A stretch of DNA of 34,225 nucleotides from Gemmatimonadales bacterium (GTDB taxonomy: Bacteria; Gemmatimonadota; Gemmatimonadetes; Gemmatimonadales; GWC2-71-9). The notes below the pieces were generated by a model, which did no database searches, was not told the DNA's origin, and saw only the letters and a list, made by a program, of their open reading frames with translations. The stretch covers positions 1 through 34,225 of the forward strand of contig JAICNA010000004.1 in assembly GCA_025928955.1 (NCBI GenBank). The letters run 5' to 3'. Of the stretch, positions 12,301-21,443 are shown piece by piece (position 1 is the first letter of the stretch; each line of letters starts with the position of its first letter). The position numbers and the translations under genes are program-made.

Positions 12301-14952
12301 ATGACAGGCATGCTCGAATCCGATATTGCCGTACTTCCCGAAGCGCTCGAGGTGCGTCGGCTCCGGGCGCTCCGGGGGCCGAATGCCTGGAGCCTCGATC
12401 CGGTCATCGCGTGCGACGTCGTCCCCGGCGCGCTGTGCGAGGTGAACAGCGCCGACGTCCCGGGCTTCACGGACCGTCTGCTCGAGGCGCTCCCCTCACT
12501 CTCAGAGCACCCGTGCTCGATCGGGTCTCCGGGAGGATTCGTGCAGCGACTCCGCGAAGGCACGGAGTGGCCGCACATCCTCGAGCACGTGGGGCTCGAT
12601 CTGCAGGGGCTCGCGGGAAGCGAGGTCCGGTTCGGCCGCGTGGTCCGTGGGGGAAGCCCCGGGGTGTGGCGGGTCGTCGTCGAGTACGAGCACGAGGACG
12701 TCGGCCTCCAGGCGATGCGTGACGCCGTCGCCACCGTCCGTGCCTGCATCGGCGGTGAGGCGCCCGACATGCATCCGGTCGTCGAGGCGCTCCGGCAGCT
12801 GCACGCATCGATCCGGCTCGGCCCGTCCACCGCGGCGATCGTCGAGGAGGCGCGCCGGCGCGGGATCCCGGTGCGGCGCCTCAACACCGGTTCCTTCATC
12901 CAGCTCGGGCTCGGCCGTCACCTGCGCCGGCTCAAGGCGACGATGAGCGACCAGACGAGCATCATCGGTGTCGAGATCGCCCAGGACAAGGATCTCACCA
13001 AGCGCATCCTCGGCAACATCGGCTTGTCGGTGCCTGCCGGGGCGCTCGCGGCGAGCGTCGATGACGCGGTCGCCGCAGCGAATGAGATCGGCTACCCCGT
13101 CATCCTCAAGCCTCGCGACGGCAATCAGGGCCGGGGCATTTCGGGCTGCCTCACCGATGCAGCGGCCGTGCGCGACGCGTGGGAGGCCGCGGCGGCGCTC
13201 GGGCGTGCGGTGATCGTCGAGCGGCACTCGGCCGGCCGCGATCATCGGGTGCTGGTCGTGAACGGAAAGGTCGTCGCCGTGGCCGAGCGCATCGCCGCGC
13301 ACGTCACGGGCAACGGGCGGTCGACGATCCGGGAGCTCATCGCGGACGCGAATCTCGACCCGAGGCGCGGTGAGGGACACGGGAGCATCCTCACGCTCCT
13401 GCCCGCCGACGCCGCGACCGAAGCGCACCTCGCGCTCTCGGGCCGCGGGCTCGACAGCGTGCCCGCGGATGGCGAGCGGGTCTTCCTCCGCGGCACCGCG
13501 AATCTCTCGACCGGCGGGACGTCGATCGACCGCACCGACGAGATCCATCCCGACAACGTCACCGCATGCGAGCTCGCCGCCAGCGTCGTCGGGCTGGATA
13601 TCGCGGGGCTCGACATCCTCACGCCCGACATCTCGGTCCCGTTCCACGAGAACGGCGCCGTCATCATCGAGGTGAATGCTGCGCCGGGCGTGCGCATGCA
13701 CACGCACCCGGTCGAGGGAAAGCCGAGGAACGTGGCCGGCGCCATCCTGGACATGCTGTATCCCGCCGGCGCGCGCACGGCGATCCCGATCATCGCCGTG
13801 ACCGGCACGAACGGGAAGACGACCACCACGCGCCTCGTCGCCCACCTCTTCCGCAACACCGGACGCACCGTCGGGTTCACCACCACGGACGGGGTGTACC
13901 TGCAGAACCGCCTCGTCGCGTCCGGCGACATGACGGGGCCGTTCGCCGCGGGCATCGTGCTCTCCAATCCGATCGTGGAAGTCGCCGTGCTCGAGACGGC
14001 GCGCGGCGGGATCCTCCGCTCGGGGCTCGGCTTCGAGGAATGTGACGTCGGGATCGTGCTCAACGTTTCCGGCGACCACCTCGGCCTGCACGGCGTCCAG
14101 ACGCTCGAGGAGCTGGCCGAAGTGAAGGCCGTGGTACCTGCGGTCGTGAAGCGGCGCGGGCATGCGGTGCTCAATGCCGATGATCCGCTCGTGCGCGGCA
14201 TGGGCGAGCGGACGAGCGGTGACGTGGTCCTCTTCTCGACCGAGCCGGACGCAGCGAACCCGGCCATCAAGGCGCACGTGGAGGATGGCGGCACGGCGGC
14301 GTGCATCGAGCAGGAGACGTTCGTCATCCGCCGCGGGCGGCTCCGGATCCCGATCGCCGCGACCGGCGAGGTGCCGCTCACCATCGGCGGGGCGGCTCGA
14401 TTCCAGTATCAGAACATCCTGGCGGCGATCGCCGCCGCGTACGTGCAGGGCATGCGGTACGAGGATATCCGTGCGGGACTGATGTCGTTCTTCCCCTCGC
14501 CGTCACTCACGCCCGGCCGGATGAACCTCCTGCGGGTGGGACGCGGCCAGGTCCTCGTGGACTATGCGCACAACGCCGCGGCGATGTCGGGCCTCATGGA
14601 CCTGGTGGCGCGCATCGATGCGGCGCGGCGCATTGCCGTGCTGGCCGGGCCGGGGGATCGTCGCGACGAGGACCTGCGCGCGCTCGGTCGGAGCGCGGCG
14701 GGGTTCGATTTCGTGATCATCAAGGAAGACGACGACCTGCGAGGCCGGAACCCGGGAGACGCCATCGCGCTGCTTCGTCAGGGGCTGCTCGAGACCGGGA
14801 TGGCGCCGGAGCGCATCGAGGTGCATCCCCGGGAGCGGGACGCCGTGTCCCGCGGGCTCGAGCTGCTGCAGGGGCACGACCTGCTCGTGATCCTCGCCGT
14901 AGACGTGCCGGCGGTGCTGGAGCAGCTCCGGCCGATCTCGACGAGCCTCTAG
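12301..14952 (+). CDS. cphA: Cyanophycin synthetase, copy 1 (N domain + ATP-grasp + Mur ligase)
   Basis: LKPRDGNQGRGIS, VERHSAGRDHRVLVV, IIEVNAAPG (ATP-grasp); VTGTNGKTTTTRL, LETARGGILRSGL, VDYAHNA, DDDLRGRNPGD (Mur ligase). ATG 12301 is the start inside ORF 11419-14952. Confidence 0.93.
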   Translation: MTGMLESDIAVLPEALEVRRLRALRGPNAWSLDPVIACDVVPGALCEVNSADVPGFTDRLLEALPSLSEHPCSIGSPGGFVQRLREGTEWPHILEHVGLDLQGLAGSEVRFGRVVRGGSPGVWRVVVEYEHEDVGLQAMRDAVATVRACIGGEAPDMHPVVEALRQLHASIRLGPSTAAIVEEARRRGIPVRRLNTGSFIQLGLGRHLRRLKATMSDQTSIIGVEIAQDKDLTKRILGNIGLSVPAGALAASVDDAVAAANEIGYPVILKPRDGNQGRGISGCLTDAAAVRDAWEAAAALGRAVIVERHSAGRDHRVLVVNGKVVAVAERIAAHVTGNGRSTIRELIADANLDPRRGEGHGSILTLLPADAATEAHLALSGRGLDSVPADGERVFLRGTANLSTGGTSIDRTDEIHPDNVTACELAASVVGLDIAGLDILTPDISVPFHENGAVIIEVNAAPGVRMHTHPVEGKPRNVAGAILDMLYPAGARTAIPIIAVTGTNGKTTTTRLVAHLFRNTGRTVGFTTTDGVYLQNRLVASGDMTGPFAAGIVLSNPIVEVAVLETARGGILRSGLGFEECDVGIVLNVSGDHLGLHGVQTLEELAEVKAVVPAVVKRRGHAVLNADDPLVRGMGERTSGDVVLFSTEPDAANPAIKAHVEDGGTAACIEQETFVIRRGRLRIPIAATGEVPLTIGGAARFQYQNILAAIAAAYVQGMRYEDIRAGLMSFFPSPSLTPGRMNLLRVGRGQVLVDYAHNAAAMSGLMDLVARIDAARRIAVLAGPGDRRDEDLRALGRSAAGFDFVIIKEDDDLRGRNPGDAIALLRQGLLETGMAPERIEVHPRERDAVSRGLELLQGHDLLVILAVDVPAVLEQLRPISTSL

Positions 14953-16595
14953 CGCTCCGCTTCCGCCGCGCGCAGCAGCTCGAGCACGCGGCCGCGCTCC
15001 TCGTGAACCAGGAGCACGAGCAGGTCGCCGGGCTCGGCCCAGGCGAGCGCGCGTTCCGCCGCCTCGACCTCGGTCTCGACGTCCTCGAGCGCGTCCTCGG
15101 CAAAGCCGGACGCCAGGAGCGCCTTCCGCAGGACGGCACGCACCTCCCCCGGACCTCTTCCCCTCCGCAGCGTCGGCAGCTCCTTGAGCAGGATGCGGTC
15201 CGGCGAGAGCTCCAGCGCGGCGGCCGCGAGCTCCGCGATGGCCGCATCGTCGCGGTCTCCCGCCTGGCCGAGGAGGATGAGGCGGCGCCGGGCGGGAATG
15301 GTGTCGAGAAACCCTCGGAGCGCATGGATGCCGTGCGGGTTGTGCCCGTAGTCGACGAGCACATGCGCCCCGCCGATGTCGAGGACCGTGCCGCGCCCCG
15401 GGTTGTCGACCGCCGGCTCGAACCGGCGGAGCGCCGGCGCGATCGCCGACTCGGGGACGCCGAGTGCGAGCGCGAGGGCCGACGCGGCCAGGACGTTCTC
15501 GATCTCGTAGGGCGCGGTCGCGCCGGTGGCATGACGGAGGTCGTCGATCGCGGCGAGCACGCGCCGGCCTCCGGCGTGCAGCACGACCGAGTCCCCCTCC
15601 AGGCACACCTGCCGTGCCGCCCCGCGAACCGGACCGCCGCGCGAGAACCAGGTCACTCCCGCCCTCCGCTCTCCTTCGCCGCGGAGCAGCGCGTCGTCCG
15701 CATTGAAGATGATCGCCCCTTCGCGCGGGACGACGCGCGTCACGACGAGCTTCGCCGCGAGGAGCTGCTCGACCGAGCCGACGCCGAAATCGCCCAGGTG
15801 GTCGGCGGCGATGTTCGTGACGAGCGCTGCGTCGGCGCGCCGCACGGCGAGCCCCCGCCGCAGGATCCCGCCACGCGCCGTCTCGAGGATCGCGATCGTG
15901 ACCCGCGGATCGCGGAGGACGACGCGCGCGCCCATCGGGCCGGCGAAATCGGTCGGGACGATGAGCTCGCGACCGACGCTCACCCCGTCGGTCGAGGTGT
16001 AGCCCGGCGTGTGCCCCGCCTCGCGTGCCATCGCGGCCGCGAACCGGACGGTGGAGGTCTTGCCGTTCGAGCCGGTGACGAGGCCGATCGGAACGTCGTG
16101 GATGCCCGACCAGTCGATCGTGGAAGGATCCGGGATCTCGTCGTTGGGCCAGAGGCGGACCCCCCGACCCGATCCGACCGATGCACCGTCATCGTCGTGG
16201 AGGAAGGTGAGGCCTCGGCGCGCTGCCTCCGCTTCGAGCGCGAGCAGCGCGGGATTCCGGTCCCGCTCGATCCGCTCGCGCAGCCGGTCGATCGCGCCGG
16301 CGGCGGTCGGCCCGCCCGATGTCGCGGCACTCCACGCGAGCTCCGCGAGATCGGTGGCGGGATAGAGACCATCCAGCGGCGCGCTCACGAAGAGATGCGC
16401 ACCACCGGGGAACGGCCGGACGACCGTCGTTTCCGCGCTCCAGCCGACGGCATCGAGGAGCCGCCGCGCTTCGGCTTCCCACGTCGCCGCCCGTTCGTCC
16501 TGGTCGACAGCGAGGAAGACATCGAATGCGGCGCCGGTGCGGTCTCCGAGGAGGTGCGGGCCGGTGATCCGGCGCGCTTCGGGCTCCGCGGTCAA
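14949..16595 (-). CDS. CphA-derived Mur ligase family protein lacking the ATP-grasp domain
   Basis: VTGSNGKTSTVR P-loop, LETARGGILRRGL, NFADD-type NADD, VDYGHNPHG; no KPxxxNxGRG or EVNAAPG motifs. TTG start at 16595 overlaps the stop of the upstream cphA (TTGA). Confidence 0.85.
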   Translation of the reverse strand: MTAEPEARRITGPHLLGDRTGAAFDVFLAVDQDERAATWEAEARRLLDAVGWSAETTVVRPFPGGAHLFVSAPLDGLYPATDLAELAWSAATSGGPTAAGAIDRLRERIERDRNPALLALEAEAARRGLTFLHDDDGASVGSGRGVRLWPNDEIPDPSTIDWSGIHDVPIGLVTGSNGKTSTVRFAAAMAREAGHTPGYTSTDGVSVGRELIVPTDFAGPMGARVVLRDPRVTIAILETARGGILRRGLAVRRADAALVTNIAADHLGDFGVGSVEQLLAAKLVVTRVVPREGAIIFNADDALLRGEGERRAGVTWFSRGGPVRGAARQVCLEGDSVVLHAGGRRVLAAIDDLRHATGATAPYEIENVLAASALALALGVPESAIAPALRRFEPAVDNPGRGTVLDIGGAHVLVDYGHNPHGIHALRGFLDTIPARRRLILLGQAGDRDDAAIAELAAAALELSPDRILLKELPTLRRGRGPGEVRAVLRKALLASGFAEDALEDVETEVEAAERALAWAEPGDLLVLLVHEERGRVLELLRAAEAER

Positions 16596-19411
16596 TCCTC
16601 GCCCTCGACCTCGGCTTCGACCTTTCGCGCGAGGCGCACTCCGCGCACATCGCGCACGAGAGGACGCGCCGCCTCCGGCGCGGGAGCGGCCGGCGGTGCC
16701 ACGGGAAGCGCGGCCGCCGTGCCGTTCCCCGAGACGCCGCGCCGAGCGCTCCGCCGCTCCACCTCGACCGGGCGGAACGACGAGATCTGCTCCCATGTGC
16801 GCGCGACGGCGTCCCCGAAGATGAGCACGAGGTCCCCGGCACGCGCCTCGGAAAGGGCCTGGGCCGTGGCCTCCTGCTCGTCCGGCACGACGGCGATCTG
16901 CTCCTCCGGGACGCCGAACTCGAGCAGCGCATCGCGGAGCATTCGCGGGATCTCGTCCGGCGTCCGTCCCCGGAGCCCGTCATCCCGGCGGCAGATGTAC
17001 CGGTCGAACCATCCCGCGGCGATCCGCGCGATCTCCTTCACGTCCTCGTCCCGCCGGTCTCCGGGCGCCGCGAGGACGACGATGCGGCGGCCACCGGTCT
17101 GCAGCCGGTCGACGAACTGCACCATCGCCTCGACAGCGGCGGGATTGTGGCCGTAGTCGAGGATCACCTTGAACGGATGGTCGTCGAAGACGTTGCCGCG
17201 GCCGGGGGCCTGGAAGAAGGTCGTGTCGAACGTCTGCAGCCCGTGGCGGATGTTCTCCAGCTTGAGGCCCATGCTGAACGCGAGTGCGGCCGCGAACATG
17301 GCGTTCTGCACGTTGTGCAGCGCGCGCCCGTCGAGGGTCGCGGGCACGAGATGCGCCGGGAGCAGGGGGATGTGTGCGCCGTGGTCGTAGAGGGTGATCA
17401 TGCGCCCCGTCATGCTCCCCTCGAGCACGATGCCCCGGCCACCCGCCTGGATGTGCTCGCGCACGAGCTCGTGATTCGGATCCATCGTCACGTAGCACAC
17501 GTGCTTCGCGTCGGTATGATCGGCCATCGCGAGGCAGAGCGGGTCGTCGGCGTTGAGCACCGCCGTGTCCCGCGCTACTTCGACCACGATCCGCTTGACC
17601 TTCGCCAGCTCCTCCACCGTGTCGATGCCCCGGCGGCCCAGGTGGTCCGACTTCACGTTGAGCACCGCGCCGACGTCCACCTGCCGCACCGCGAGGCCCG
17701 CCCGCAGGAGGCCTCCGCGCGCCACCTCGAGCACCGCGACATCCACGAACGGATCGCTCAGCACCATCCGCGTGGCGCGCGGGCCCGTCATGTCGCCCGA
17801 GACGGTTCGCTGCCCGTCGATGTAGACGCCGTCGGTCGTGGTGAGGCCGACGTGGTGGCCCGCGAGCTTGTGGATGTGCGCGAGCATGCGCGCCGTCGTG
17901 GTCTTGCCGTTCGTGCCGGTGATCGCGGCGATCGGGATCCGGCTCGGCGCCCCCGCCGGGAATAGCATGTCGAGCACCGGCCCCGCGACGTCGCGCGACT
18001 TCCCTTCGCTCGGCGCCATGTGCATCCGGAATCCGGGCGCGGCATTCACCTCGACGATCGCCCCGCCGACCTCCTTGTACGAGCGGGTGATGTCGCTCGT
18101 GAGGAAGTCCACCCCGCCCACGTCGAGCCCGATCGCCTCCACGGCGCGCACCGCCATGTCGGCGTTGTCCGGGTGCACCACGTCCGTCATGTCGATGGCG
18201 GTGCCGCCGGTCGAGAGGTTGCCGGTCGACCGGAGGAAGACGCGCTCGCCGCTCGCGGGCACCGTGTCACGGCCGTAGCCGAGCCTGGACAGCAGCATCT
18301 CCGCCTGCCCGTCGATCTCGAGGCGCGTCAGCACCTTCTCGTGGCCGATGCCACGGCGCGGATCGTCGTTCACCTCCGCGACGAGTTCCTCGATCGTGTG
18401 CACGCCGTCGCCGATCACATGGCCGGGAATCCGCTGGGAGACCGCGATCAGCCGCCCATTGACCACGAGGATCCGGTGGTCGTACCCGCTCACGAAGGTC
18501 TCGATGATCACGCTCCGGCTGTGCTCGCGCGCGGTGGCGAACGCGGCGCGTACCTGATCGGCCTCGAGCAGGTGGATGGAGATCCCGCGCCCGTGGTTGG
18601 CGTTGTACGGCTTCACCACGACCGGATAGCCGATCGCCTCGGCGGCGCGCACGGCGGCTTCCGGGGTCTGCACGAGGCGCTGGATCGGCACGGGAAGCCC
18701 GAGATTCGCGAGCAGGCGGTTCGTCTCCTCCTTATCGGAGGCGAGCTCGACCGCGATGTGGGACGTGTTGCTCGTGACCGTCGCCTGCACCCGCCGCCGG
18801 TAGCGCCCGTGCCCGAACTGGATCAGGCTGTTGGTGCCGAGCCGCATCCAGGGGATCCGCCGCTCCTCCGCCGCGTGCACCAGCGCCGCCGTGCTCGGCC
18901 CGAGGGCGTGCCGCTGGGTAAAGCGGATGAAGTCGTCCCGCTCGGCCGCGAAGTCGAATCCCTCCGGGACCGCCTCCTCGTCACGCAGCTCGCGCGGGAG
19001 GAGGCTCAGGAGGAGCGTGCGCGCGAGCTCGCCGGCCTCGAGGCCGACTTCCTCCTGCTCGTACTGGTAGACGATCCAGTAATGCCCGCGGGGGCCGAGC
19101 GAGCGCGTCTTGCCGAAGGTGAGCGGATGGCCGGCGACGTTCTGGAGCTCGATCGCGACGTGTTCCAGGATATGCCCCATCCACGTACCGTCGCCCTCGG
19201 TGAGACGCCGGACGAAGCCGCCGGGCTCGCCGTAGGAACAGCCGTGCTGCGTGAGCCCCGGAAGCGCCGACAGCAGCCCGTTGATGAACTCGGGGCCGAG
19301 CTTTGCCGACGGCCAGTCCTCGAGGACGCCGAGGTCGACGTCGAGCCGGATGACGGGAAAGTGGGCATAGAGATTCGGGCCCACGTACACGGCGCGGTCG
19401 AGGATCCGCAT
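16592..19411 (-). CDS. cphA: Cyanophycin synthetase, copy 2 (N domain + ATP-grasp + Mur ligase)
   Basis: MRILDRAVYVGPNLYAHFPVIRL start; VKPYNANHGRGIS, SGYDHRILVVNG, IVEVNAAPG; ITGTNGKTTTARM, LEVARGGLLRAGL, LDYGHNPAA, DDGLRGRTPDE; about 50-aa Pro/Ala/Arg-rich then acidic C-terminal tail. Confidence 0.95.
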   Translation of the reverse strand: MRILDRAVYVGPNLYAHFPVIRLDVDLGVLEDWPSAKLGPEFINGLLSALPGLTQHGCSYGEPGGFVRRLTEGDGTWMGHILEHVAIELQNVAGHPLTFGKTRSLGPRGHYWIVYQYEQEEVGLEAGELARTLLLSLLPRELRDEEAVPEGFDFAAERDDFIRFTQRHALGPSTAALVHAAEERRIPWMRLGTNSLIQFGHGRYRRRVQATVTSNTSHIAVELASDKEETNRLLANLGLPVPIQRLVQTPEAAVRAAEAIGYPVVVKPYNANHGRGISIHLLEADQVRAAFATAREHSRSVIIETFVSGYDHRILVVNGRLIAVSQRIPGHVIGDGVHTIEELVAEVNDDPRRGIGHEKVLTRLEIDGQAEMLLSRLGYGRDTVPASGERVFLRSTGNLSTGGTAIDMTDVVHPDNADMAVRAVEAIGLDVGGVDFLTSDITRSYKEVGGAIVEVNAAPGFRMHMAPSEGKSRDVAGPVLDMLFPAGAPSRIPIAAITGTNGKTTTARMLAHIHKLAGHHVGLTTTDGVYIDGQRTVSGDMTGPRATRMVLSDPFVDVAVLEVARGGLLRAGLAVRQVDVGAVLNVKSDHLGRRGIDTVEELAKVKRIVVEVARDTAVLNADDPLCLAMADHTDAKHVCYVTMDPNHELVREHIQAGGRGIVLEGSMTGRMITLYDHGAHIPLLPAHLVPATLDGRALHNVQNAMFAAALAFSMGLKLENIRHGLQTFDTTFFQAPGRGNVFDDHPFKVILDYGHNPAAVEAMVQFVDRLQTGGRRIVVLAAPGDRRDEDVKEIARIAAGWFDRYICRRDDGLRGRTPDEIPRMLRDALLEFGVPEEQIAVVPDEQEATAQALSEARAGDLVLIFGDAVARTWEQISSFRPVEVERRSARRGVSGNGTAAALPVAPPAAPAPEAARPLVRDVRGVRLARKVEAEVEGED

Positions 19412-19422
19412 GGCAGGTTCCG

Positions 19423-20331
19423 TTAGACGCGAAGCGCGATCGCCGGAGCGGGCGCGGCCTCTCGCGTATGAAGGTTGTACGTGGAGCCGTGGTCGAGGAT
19501 GTGCAGGCGGAGGCCGATGAGGCACACCGGATCGTTCTTCCGCACGCGCGCCATCGAGCTGAACGTGATCTCGGACGGATCCACGACGGTCAGCGATCCG
19601 CCGCCCACGACCTCGAGGTTGTTGTCCGGCCCGATGAAGGCCGCCGTATTCTCGTCGAGCCCGATGCCGATGGCGAACGGGTTGTAGCCGATCGCGGTGA
19701 GCAGGCGGCCGAGGCGGTCGCGCTGGCGGAAATGCTGGTCGATGATCACGCGGTTGGTGAGGCCGAGCCCGGGCGCGAGCGTCACGATCTTCGCCCGTGG
19801 CGAGGCGCCCTCCCGGCCGAACGCGATCATGTGCTCGCAGAGGAACGCGGCCCCCGCCGAGGTGCCCGCGACGTGCACGCCGGACGCGTTCCGGCGGCGT
19901 ATTGCCCGCGCCACGTCGGTGCCGCCGATGAGCGTGGAGAGGCGCAGCTGGTTCCCGCCGGTGAGGAAGATCCCGTCCACGTCCTCGAGCGGCTCGACGT
20001 GATTCGGGTCCATCGCGTGGCTCCGGTCGGTGATCGGCAGGACGACCGTCTCCGCCGCGCCGAGCGTCGTGAACAGCGTCGCGTATTTCTGGCCGGTATC
20101 CGAGAGCTCGGAGGCGGTGGGGATGATCGCGATCCGCGCCGACGGCCCGCCGCAGAGCGCGACGAACCGGCGGAGGATCATGATGTCCCCGACCTTCTCT
20201 TCCGCGCCGCCGACCGGGATCACGAAGCCGCTGCCGAGAACGTCCCGCACATCGGGATCGGCGGGTTCGATCAGATCGCCAGATCCTCGAAAGTTCCGCG
20301 ACGAACCGCTCGACCGTTTCGTACGTGCCAT
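19423..20331 (-). CDS. cphB: Cyanophycinase (start uncertain: 20331 ATG, or GTG near 20250)
   Basis: GSGFVIPVGGAEEKVGD...; GIFLTGGNQLRLSTLIGG; nucleophile motif GTSAGAAFLCEHMI; neighbours cphA and iadA. Confidence 0.9.
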   Translation of the reverse strand: MARTKRSSGSSRNFRGSGDLIEPADPDVRDVLGSGFVIPVGGAEEKVGDIMILRRFVALCGGPSARIAIIPTASELSDTGQKYATLFTTLGAAETVVLPITDRSHAMDPNHVEPLEDVDGIFLTGGNQLRLSTLIGGTDVARAIRRRNASGVHVAGTSAGAAFLCEHMIAFGREGASPRAKIVTLAPGLGLTNRVIIDQHFRQRDRLGRLLTAIGYNPFAIGIGLDENTAAFIGPDNNLEVVGGGSLTVVDPSEITFSSMARVRKNDPVCLIGLRLHILDHGSTYNLHTREAAPAPAIALRV

Positions 20332-21443
20332 TGCCCTCTCACCATGACGTCACGGATGGCCCCGGCGGCATCGAGCACGACGACGTCGGCATCGGTACCC
20401 GGGGCGATGCGCCCCTTGCGGGGCAGCAGGAGGAGCCGCGCCACGTTGGCCGTGAACGCGGGAAGGACGCGAGCCAGCGGCTCGCCGCGCGCGAGGAGCG
20501 CGCGCAGGGTGTTGCCGAGTGCGGCGGGCCGCCCGACGTCCATCGAGGCGACGCGCCCGTCGCTGTCGAATACCGGCAGGCACCCGCCGGCGTCGCTGCT
20601 CACCGTCACGTTTCCCGGGGGAAGCTTCGCGTCGAGGTACCGGACGAGCGCTTCGTCTGCGGGCCACGCATCCTCGTCGGCTCCGACGGGAAAGGCGGTG
20701 ATGTCGATCACGGTGCCGTTCGCCGCGAGCGCGCACGCCTCGTCGAACAGCGCGCGCTTCCGGTTCACGTGCGTCGGATGAAAGACCGACGGCGGCAGCT
20801 CGCTCGTCGCGAGCGCCTGACGAACGAGGTCGAGGCCGCGCGCGCCATCGCCCATGTGCAGGTGCACGATCCCCGCCTTGCCCGTCATCATCCCTGCCAC
20901 GTGCGCATCGGCGGCGATCCGCAGCAGCTCATCGAGCGTCGGCTGGCTCGAGCGATGATCGCTGAGTGCCACCTCGCCGATCCCGATGATCCGATCGATG
21001 AGGACGATGTCGCCCCGGACGCTTCCGGTGACCGTCGCCGGCGGAACGTGGTATCCGCCGGTGAGCGTGTACGCCGTGAGCCCTTCCGCCTCGAGCGCCC
21101 GCGCCGCGGTGACGAGCTCGGCCGGGGTGCGGACGACGTCGTCCGTGCCGAGCACGCCGACCACCGTCGTCGTCCCGCCCGTGGTGAACCGGCTCAATGG
21201 GACCGGCGGGACCCGTGTATGCGGGCCCGCCTCGCCCCCGCCACCGGTCAGGTGGGCGTGACAGTCGATGAAGCCCGGGACGACCCGCAGCCCGCCCAGG
21301 TCCGTCACTTCGGCGCCGAGCGCGTCGGGCAGCTGCGGCGGCTCCGTGCCGAGCCAGGCGACGCGATCACCCGTGACCAGCACGTGGCGGCGCCCGAGCG
21401 GCTCCGGGGCGTAGAGATCCGCATTGAGCAGAAGCTGGATCAT
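20271..21443 (-). CDS. iadA: Beta-aspartyl (isoaspartyl) dipeptidase
   Basis: VVPGFIDCHAHLTGGGGEAGPHTR, GEVALSDHRSSQPT, GKAGIVHLHMGD; amidohydrolase family IadA pattern. Confidence 0.93.
   Translation of the reverse strand: MIQLLLNADLYAPEPLGRRHVLVTGDRVAWLGTEPPQLPDALGAEVTDLGGLRVVPGFIDCHAHLTGGGGEAGPHTRVPPVPLSRFTTGGTTTVVGVLGTDDVVRTPAELVTAARALEAEGLTAYTLTGGYHVPPATVTGSVRGDIVLIDRIIGIGEVALSDHRSSQPTLDELLRIAADAHVAGMMTGKAGIVHLHMGDGARGLDLVRQALATSELPPSVFHPTHVNRKRALFDEACALAANGTVIDITAFPVGADEDAWPADEALVRYLDAKLPPGNVTVSSDAGGCLPVFDSDGRVASMDVGRPAALGNTLRALLARGEPLARVLPAFTANVARLLLLPRKGRIAPGTDADVVVLDAAGAIRDVMVRGQWHVRNGRAVRRGTFEDLAI

Follow-up and report, generated by a model that had tools for sequence, protein, structure and literature searches.

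In textbook accounts a single enzyme, cyanophycin synthetase (CphA), makes the bacterial nitrogen-storage polymer cyanophycin, which carries one main side-chain amino acid. The locus described here encodes a second CphA-related ligase directly behind a complete cphA gene. The locus lies in a 34,225-nucleotide stretch of DNA (the whole of which is called the window) from a Gemmatimonadales draft genome of 2.77 Mb, and the gene in question, here named MURX, occupies positions 14949–16595 of the minus strand, stop codon included, and encodes a product of 548 amino acids. As judged from the open reading frame, Pfam, the NCBIfam profiles and a family alignment, MURX is a CphA-related protein with an N-terminal (N) domain and a Mur ligase-type (M) domain and without the ATP-grasp (G) domain of CphA. 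It starts with the TTG codon at 16595, which shares the bases TTGA with the TGA stop codon of the upstream cphA. An alternative in-frame ATG is found upstream at 16796; the short form is favoured because most relatives in the family alignment begin only a few residues ahead of 'DSRRLTGPN'. The GC content is 70% for the window overall and 0.85 at the third codon position of the MURX frame.

The ligase half

The Pfam scan of MURX returned Mur_ligase_M and Mur_ligase_C and nothing else, with no ATP-grasp match and with the CphA-type N domain (PF18921) below detection. The middle domain (Mcore, residues 173–374; 15474–16079, minus strand) holds the P-loop GSNGKTST, ETARGGILRRGL, ADHLG and K282, and the C-terminal domain (Mlid, residues 401–528; 15012–15395, minus strand) holds PGR401 and DYGHN with H418. 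The CphA profile TIGR02068 scored 298.9 bits, under its cut-off of 850 bits, and was matched at profile positions 478–859 only. Over residues 167–542 the CphA model gave 299 bits, whereas the best MurE model gave 88 bits, MurF 53 bits and FolC 32 bits; against the sequences of the solved structures, the scores were 194 bits for CphA1 and 49 bits for MurE.

In a maximum-likelihood tree of the ligase domains (67 rows), CphA and MURX together were split from MurE with a support of 100/100; the MURX proteins came out as a single clade (99/94), to which the clade of all sampled CphA M domains (97/89) was sister. By model scores, solved structures and tree alike, the M domain of MURX is thus of the CphA type, and it groups with none of MurE, MurC, MurD, MurF or FolC. 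The first-pass annotation of this DNA had proposed a CphA-like Mur ligase lacking the ATP-grasp domain, and had named closer kinship to MurC, MurD, MurE, MurF or FolC as one of two findings that would count against it; the ligase half proved to be closest to CphA. Because MURX is sister to all sampled CphAs, its lineage goes back as far as that of the sampled CphAs and it is no recent copy of its neighbour, and a recent origin from the adjoining cphA was rejected on this ground.

The N-terminal region

Pairwise BLASTP between the N-termini of MURX and of its partner CphA gave no match (E 16), and profiles and structures were therefore used. When profiles built from the N-termini of 74 MURX proteins and of 76 CphAs were aligned with each other (hhalign), the E values were 5e-5 (local) and 4e-6 (global), and the scores of 38.7 (local) and 32.5 (global) compare with at most 21.7 and 11.7, respectively, across 100 column-shuffled control profiles. 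The global alignment pairs RRxxGPxLLxDxxGAxxDV of MURX with the start of CphA, and both the local and the global alignments pair NPALLALEAEAARRGLTFLHDDDGASVGSG with the LGPST...GIPxxRLxxxSxxQxGxG segment of CphA, so that the two by-eye alignments from which the first-pass annotation had read an echo of CphA are both recovered. When the N-terminal 166 residues (residues 3–168) were modelled separately with AlphaFold2 (AF2; mean predicted local distance difference test score, pLDDT, 95.9), CphA1 and CphA2 chains made up 11 of the top 12 Foldseek matches in the PDB, with a best E value of 2.4e-5 and TM-scores by query of around 0.5–0.6. The model of full-length MURX (pLDDT 91) aligns over whole CphA1 chains (around 870–880 columns), with TM-scores by query of 0.77–0.82 for the four best matches, compared with around 0.55 for MurE. 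MURX thus has a CphA-type N domain, according to the shuffle-controlled profile alignment and the predicted structure, which is smaller than that of CphA (residues 1–95; 16311–16595, minus strand) and is without the Cx19HxxEH segment. The other finding that the first-pass annotation had named as counting against it, an N-terminus unrelated to CphA in structural models, is contradicted by these matches.

Motifs were counted in 100 MURX family members and 66 CphAs. The ATP-grasp motifs KPxxxNxGRG, GxDHR and EVNxxPG occur in 65, 66 and 59 of the 66 CphAs, respectively, and in none of the 100 MURX proteins, which thus have neither the G domain for backbone extension nor the active ATP-grasp domain expected of CphA2. 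An HxxEH motif within the first 200 residues is likewise found in 0/100 MURX proteins, whereas C-x(15–24)-HxxEH is found in 66/66 CphAs, and, to judge from the global alignment, the part of the N domain around HxxEH appears to have been deleted as well. The earlier statement that the missing segment is the ATP-grasp core therefore holds for that core and has to be extended to the N-domain stretch. In CphA the HxxEH hydrolase motif makes primers, and the Cx19HxxEH site is present in 83% of CphA1 and is hence not strictly defining (PMC9262961).

Residues 96–150 of MURX (16146–16310, minus strand), which contain NPALLALEAEAARRGLTFLHDDDGASVGSG, form a stub of the ATP-grasp module. In the CphA encoded by a second, convergent cphA in the window, the match to the bifunctional GshAB structure 3ln7 begins at residue 172 and LGPST is at residue 173; the LGPST segment therefore opens the module that CphA has in common with the ATP-grasp half of GshAB. 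In MURX the counterpart of this segment is followed directly by the Mur domain, and the ATP-grasp catalytic core, which follows it in CphA, is missing. The ligase-domain tree by itself does not separate gain from loss of the ATP-grasp domain, but since a stub of the module persists, loss is likelier than original absence, and a remnant is the simplest account of residues 96–150. That the same excision can occur independently is indicated by the sequence of a Legionella adelaidensis gene described below. With this domain architecture, MURX could carry out only the side-chain type of reaction, on a substrate supplied by others, as the first-pass annotation had put it.

The loss of HxxEH also bears on the possibility that MURX is a starter or end-group enzyme. 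Such an enzyme would make beta-Asp-X dipeptides or cap the ends of chains, perhaps using ammonia in the manner of MurT, and would set the supply of primers or the length of the chains and not their composition. Without the primer-making site the N domain of MURX must do something else, and CphA1 needs at least (beta-Asp-Arg)-Asp as a primer (PMC9262961). However, the CphA1 partners all carry C-x(15–24)-HxxEH and are expected to make their own primers, and no recurrent GatD-like amidotransferase was found beside MURX, and we consider such a role improbable.

Catalytic residues and the amino-acid pocket

The P-loop Lys, the Mg-binding Glu, the Asp–His pair of ADHLG, PGR and D(Y/F)xHN are invariant or near-invariant in MURX, as is the Lys at the position of the carbamylated Lys of MurE. 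The ATP and Mg contacts of TeCphA1 are Lys499, Thr500, Glu558, Arg731 and His748 (PMC9427784); their motif counterparts in MURX, K179, T180, E238, R401 and H418, are all conserved, T180 being Ser in many members. The catalytic pair D585 and H586 of SuCphA1, which has been inactivated experimentally (PMC9262961), corresponds to D265–H266, which is invariant. A search with GxNGKT had suggested loss of the P-loop in 26 members, and this was rejected, as these carry GTNGKS and the site is intact. Since the catalytic and ATP-binding residues are kept, MURX should be an active ATP-dependent ligase.

The pocket for the incoming amino acid differs from that of CphA. In CphA, position 810 is Asp in 92%, position 811 is Asp in 77% and position 867 is Asp in 89% and Glu in 7%, whereas MURX has Met, Leu or Ile at the first, variable residues at the second and His or Leu at the third, together with an additional one-residue insertion, which is mostly Tyr. 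The loop KELPTLRRGR (15156–15185, minus strand), identified by alignment and motif counts, stands in place of (K/R)xDDxxRGR of CphA, and DDxxRGR itself is found in 65/66 CphAs and 2/100 MURX proteins. MURX retains the conserved GDR arginine and the RGR motif. We take these positions to be the counterparts of the diaminopimelate site of E. coli MurE, which consists of the DNPR motif and its neighbours. Throughout the family the acidic residues are replaced, whereas those for catalysis and those on the acceptor side are kept, and the donor amino acid is therefore probably one other than arginine; most economically, the acceptor, an Asp chain, has stayed the same and the donor has probably changed.

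The same residues allow MURX to be seen as a helper ligase with unchanged chemistry, adding arginine (or lysine) to Asp residues left bare by the CphA1 M domain or speeding a slow step. The shared operon and fold, the intact catalysis and the conservation of R448 and RGR are in keeping with this. A redundant helper would be expected to retain the arginine pocket, however, whereas the acidic residues of nearly all CphAs are gone in nearly all MURX proteins and Arg787 of CphA GDRRD is replaced by Asp, Ser or Thr, which makes a helper role unlikely in our judgement.

Residues 180, 471 and 531 of MURX covary. Most members, including those of Gemmatimonadota, have the combination GKT–Lys–His, and those of Colwellia, Glaciecola, Woeseia and their relatives have GKS or GKT with Ala, Ser or Val and with Leu. 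The two patterns perhaps reflect two donor specificities.

Distribution and genomic linkage

MURX is widespread, with members in Gemmatimonadota, Proteobacteria, Acidobacteriota, Planctomycetota and other phyla that have around 30–50% identity to the window protein. The latter has the marks of the family, namely an RRxxGPN-type start, a reduced N domain, an ATP-grasp stub, an M domain without DDxxRGR and a gene directly behind cphA. In a search of 298 genomes of the same phylum, among the matches listed, MURX was found in around 47 genomes, 43 of which also have CphA, and around 24 genomes have CphA and no MURX. Among the same-phylum members, L012, L015 and L018 have the same motif sequences as the named Gemmatimonadota records L039, L046 and L093, in line with the placement of the window genome in that phylum. 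At the MURX loci of this phylum that could be placed, CphA is directly upstream on the same strand unless the contig ends. Several of the CphA loci without MURX (L119–L128) carry another CphA subclass, often in tandem.

In a survey of 80 named loci from many phyla, 74 could be judged for an upstream cphA, and in 72 of these cphA is directly upstream of MURX on the same strand, usually tens of bases apart. Of 59 MURX loci, 53 contain cphB and 27 contain iadA, and iaaA recurs in 13 loci; the prevailing arrangement is a cphB–cphA–MURX operon with iadA or iaaA. Distances among MURX proteins correlate with those among their partner CphAs (r = 0.83; the maximum of 1000 permutations was 0.11), and MURX thus co-evolves with its partner. 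Beyond what the first-pass annotation had recognized, MURX is therefore a conserved operon-bound family and not one decaying gene, and it differs from CphA in the loss of HxxEH and in its pocket. A division of labour in which the partner CphA1 has lost its M activity was rejected, as the partner CphA1 motifs are intact.

The relatives are annotated by the Prokaryotic Genome Annotation Pipeline (PGAP) only as 'Mur ligase family protein', and, the Mur domains being generic, MURX could be supposed to be an ordinary MurE-like ligase of peptidoglycan synthesis that adjoins cphA by chance. This identity is refuted by the tree, the bit scores, the CphA-like structure of the N-terminus and the linkage to cphA; other Mur ligase genes are moreover present elsewhere in the genome, and the idea retains next to no probability.

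The close linkage, the co-evolution and a single gene fusion would also suit a noncatalytic or regulatory subunit that joins CphA1 through the N–M interface and modulates it without ligating. The fusion occurs in a Neisseriaceae metagenome-assembled genome, where one open reading frame (L114, 6786–9701) joins an M domain of the CphA1 type in frame to a whole MURX; no N or G part of CphA lies upstream of the fusion, and a full CphA is encoded on another contig of that genome. A pseudoenzyme would, however, have lost some of the ATP-binding and catalytic residues, which are kept although members are only around 30–50% identical to the window protein, and we give a purely regulatory role little credence.

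Three MURX genes of Proteobacteria, two of them from Xanthomonadales (Luteimonas and Lysobacter), contain an in-frame DUF559 endonuclease-like insertion (PF04480) of around 150–200 codons in the N domain (L103, 2469–2970; L104, 8295–8802; L107, 4337–4820), with E values of 1e-29 to 1e-33 in the two that were scanned. The insertions are flanked by inverted repeats of around 45 bases (CTTCTCCC..GGGAGAAGGTGCCCGAAGGGCGGATGAGGG) and look like a mobile element tolerated within a coding gene. At another locus, that of Deinococcus sp. KNUC1210 (L142, 4510–7180), iaaA and cphB are followed by a second cphA that is split between two overlapping frames (751 and 210 amino acids), probably owing to a frameshift.

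Proposed function

We propose, with a probability of roughly 0.55, that MURX is a stand-alone second side-chain ligase that attaches an amino acid, probably one other than arginine, to the Asp chain produced by CphA1. The analysis shows that MURX is homologous to CphA, has the architecture described and intact catalytic residues, is linked to cphA in operons, co-evolves with its partner and has lost the acidic pocket, and the proposal builds on these findings; the in-frame fusion of L114 is in keeping with it as well. MURX would be an ancient paralogue of cyanophycin synthetase that has retained the polymer-holding scaffold of the N domain and the Mur-type side-chain ligase and has lost the ATP-grasp domain that polymerizes the backbone as well as the hydrolase site that makes primers. 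The G domain of CphA1 would supply a chain with unmodified Asp at its end or exposed, which MURX would hold between its N and M parts; it would then phosphorylate the beta-carboxylate of Asp using ATP and form an isopeptide bond to an amino acid. Action on cyanophycin, this reaction and a non-arginine substrate are inferred from these findings, and as a tailoring ligase MURX would equip the polymer with side chains of a second kind or with a distinct end group.

Several points weigh against this proposal. Operon linkage is no proof that the acceptor is cyanophycin, and the CphA1 partners, which look complete, presumably need no help to make cyanophycin. The pocket argument depends on aligning these proteins with E. 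coli MurE at its diaminopimelate site, and a CphA structure with bound arginine was looked for and none was found. The genes that recur around MURX besides cphA are only iadA, iaaA and cphB, which do not indicate the amino acid, and no recurrent amino-acid biosynthesis gene is found nearby to hint at the substrate.

More tentatively, and with somewhat less than even confidence, many bacteria of several phyla may make a polymer with a second, non-arginine side chain (or with amidated or capped ends) that is installed by a stand-alone ligase encoded behind cphA. The native polymers of bacteria with MURX should then hold undescribed side chains or end groups. If this is true, the one-enzyme cyanophycin pathway becomes a two-ligase pathway in these organisms, an operon gene named only for its ligase family is explained, and a tool for designed poly-Asp polymers becomes available.

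No description of the MURX family was found in the literature searched, outside which most subscription papers lie, and an earlier description is possible. A 2023 survey of cyanophycin genes sought cphA1, cyanophycinases, iadA and iaaA, and no mention of MURX was found in searches of its main text (PMC10206079); MURX is not the subject of the Francisella cphA papers. The parts of MURX are known, but their combination in a stand-alone, operon-bound N–M ligase with a changed pocket is not described in the literature searched.

Neighbouring genes in the window

On the minus strand the gene order is iadA, cphB, cphA and then MURX. Directly upstream of MURX, cphA1 (16592–19411, minus strand), the stop codon of which overlaps the MURX start, encodes a complete N–G–M cyanophycin synthetase (TIGR02068, 1125 bits; cut-off 850). 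It is preceded by the cyanophycinase gene cphB (19423–20331, minus strand; TIGR02069, 257 bits; cut-off 127) and the isoaspartyl dipeptidase gene iadA (20271–21443, minus strand; TIGR01975, 407 bits; cut-off 331). The convergent second cphA (12301–14952, plus strand), the stop codon of which overlaps that of MURX by four bases, belongs to another CphA subclass according to its open reading frame, the profiles and the ligase-domain tree; in same-phylum genomes without MURX (L119–L128), this subclass frequently forms tandem cphA pairs.

Comparison with known systems

MURX has in common with CphA1 (7LG5 and 7LGQ from Synechocystis, 7WAE from Trichodesmium and 7LGN from Tatumella) the fold of the N domain, the start of the ATP-grasp module, and Mcore and Mlid with all catalytic motifs, as well as the operon with cphB and iadA or iaaA. 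Unlike CphA1, it is without the ATP-grasp core, and hence without backbone extension, and without Cx19HxxEH; its acidic pocket is replaced and it forms a separate sister clade. MurE (UDP-MurNAc-tripeptide synthetase), the nearest Mur family after CphA, shares the ligase fold and chemistry, whereas its N domain and acceptor are different and it lies outside the clade of CphA and MURX. A second CphA-related gene beside cphA is also known from tandem cphA/cphA pairs (Fuser and Steinbuchel 2007, cited in PMC10687191); in the pairs of L119–L128, however, the first copy is a full N–G–M protein and the adjoining copy, which is not a MURX, has at its start a CphA N domain belonging to the same subclass.

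CphA2 re-polymerizes beta-Asp-Arg dipeptides via its ATP-grasp domain, and its M domain is reduced. Like MURX, CphA2 (8FXI and 7TA5) is a relative of CphA that is short of one of the two ligase activities, and MURX, with the M domain kept and the ATP-grasp domain lost, is its mirror image. As in MURX, HxxEH is missing from the N domain, which for CphA2 is stated in PMC9262961.

A parallel in architecture is a plasmid gene of Legionella adelaidensis (L144, 4299–6188; WP_058462805.1, 630 amino acids), which encodes N and M domains, has lost the ATP-grasp domain by a deletion at about the same place and lies beside a cyanophycinase and an isoaspartyl peptidase. In contrast to MURX, its product nests with Synechocystis CphA1 (99/92), keeps HxxEH and has a partly acidic pocket, and no cphA adjoins the gene; as judged from these sequences, its loss of the ATP-grasp domain is independent of that in MURX. 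MURX provides a clear example of how a multidomain polymerase can lose a module, and in L. adelaidensis that module, the ATP-grasp domain, has been lost a second time and independently.

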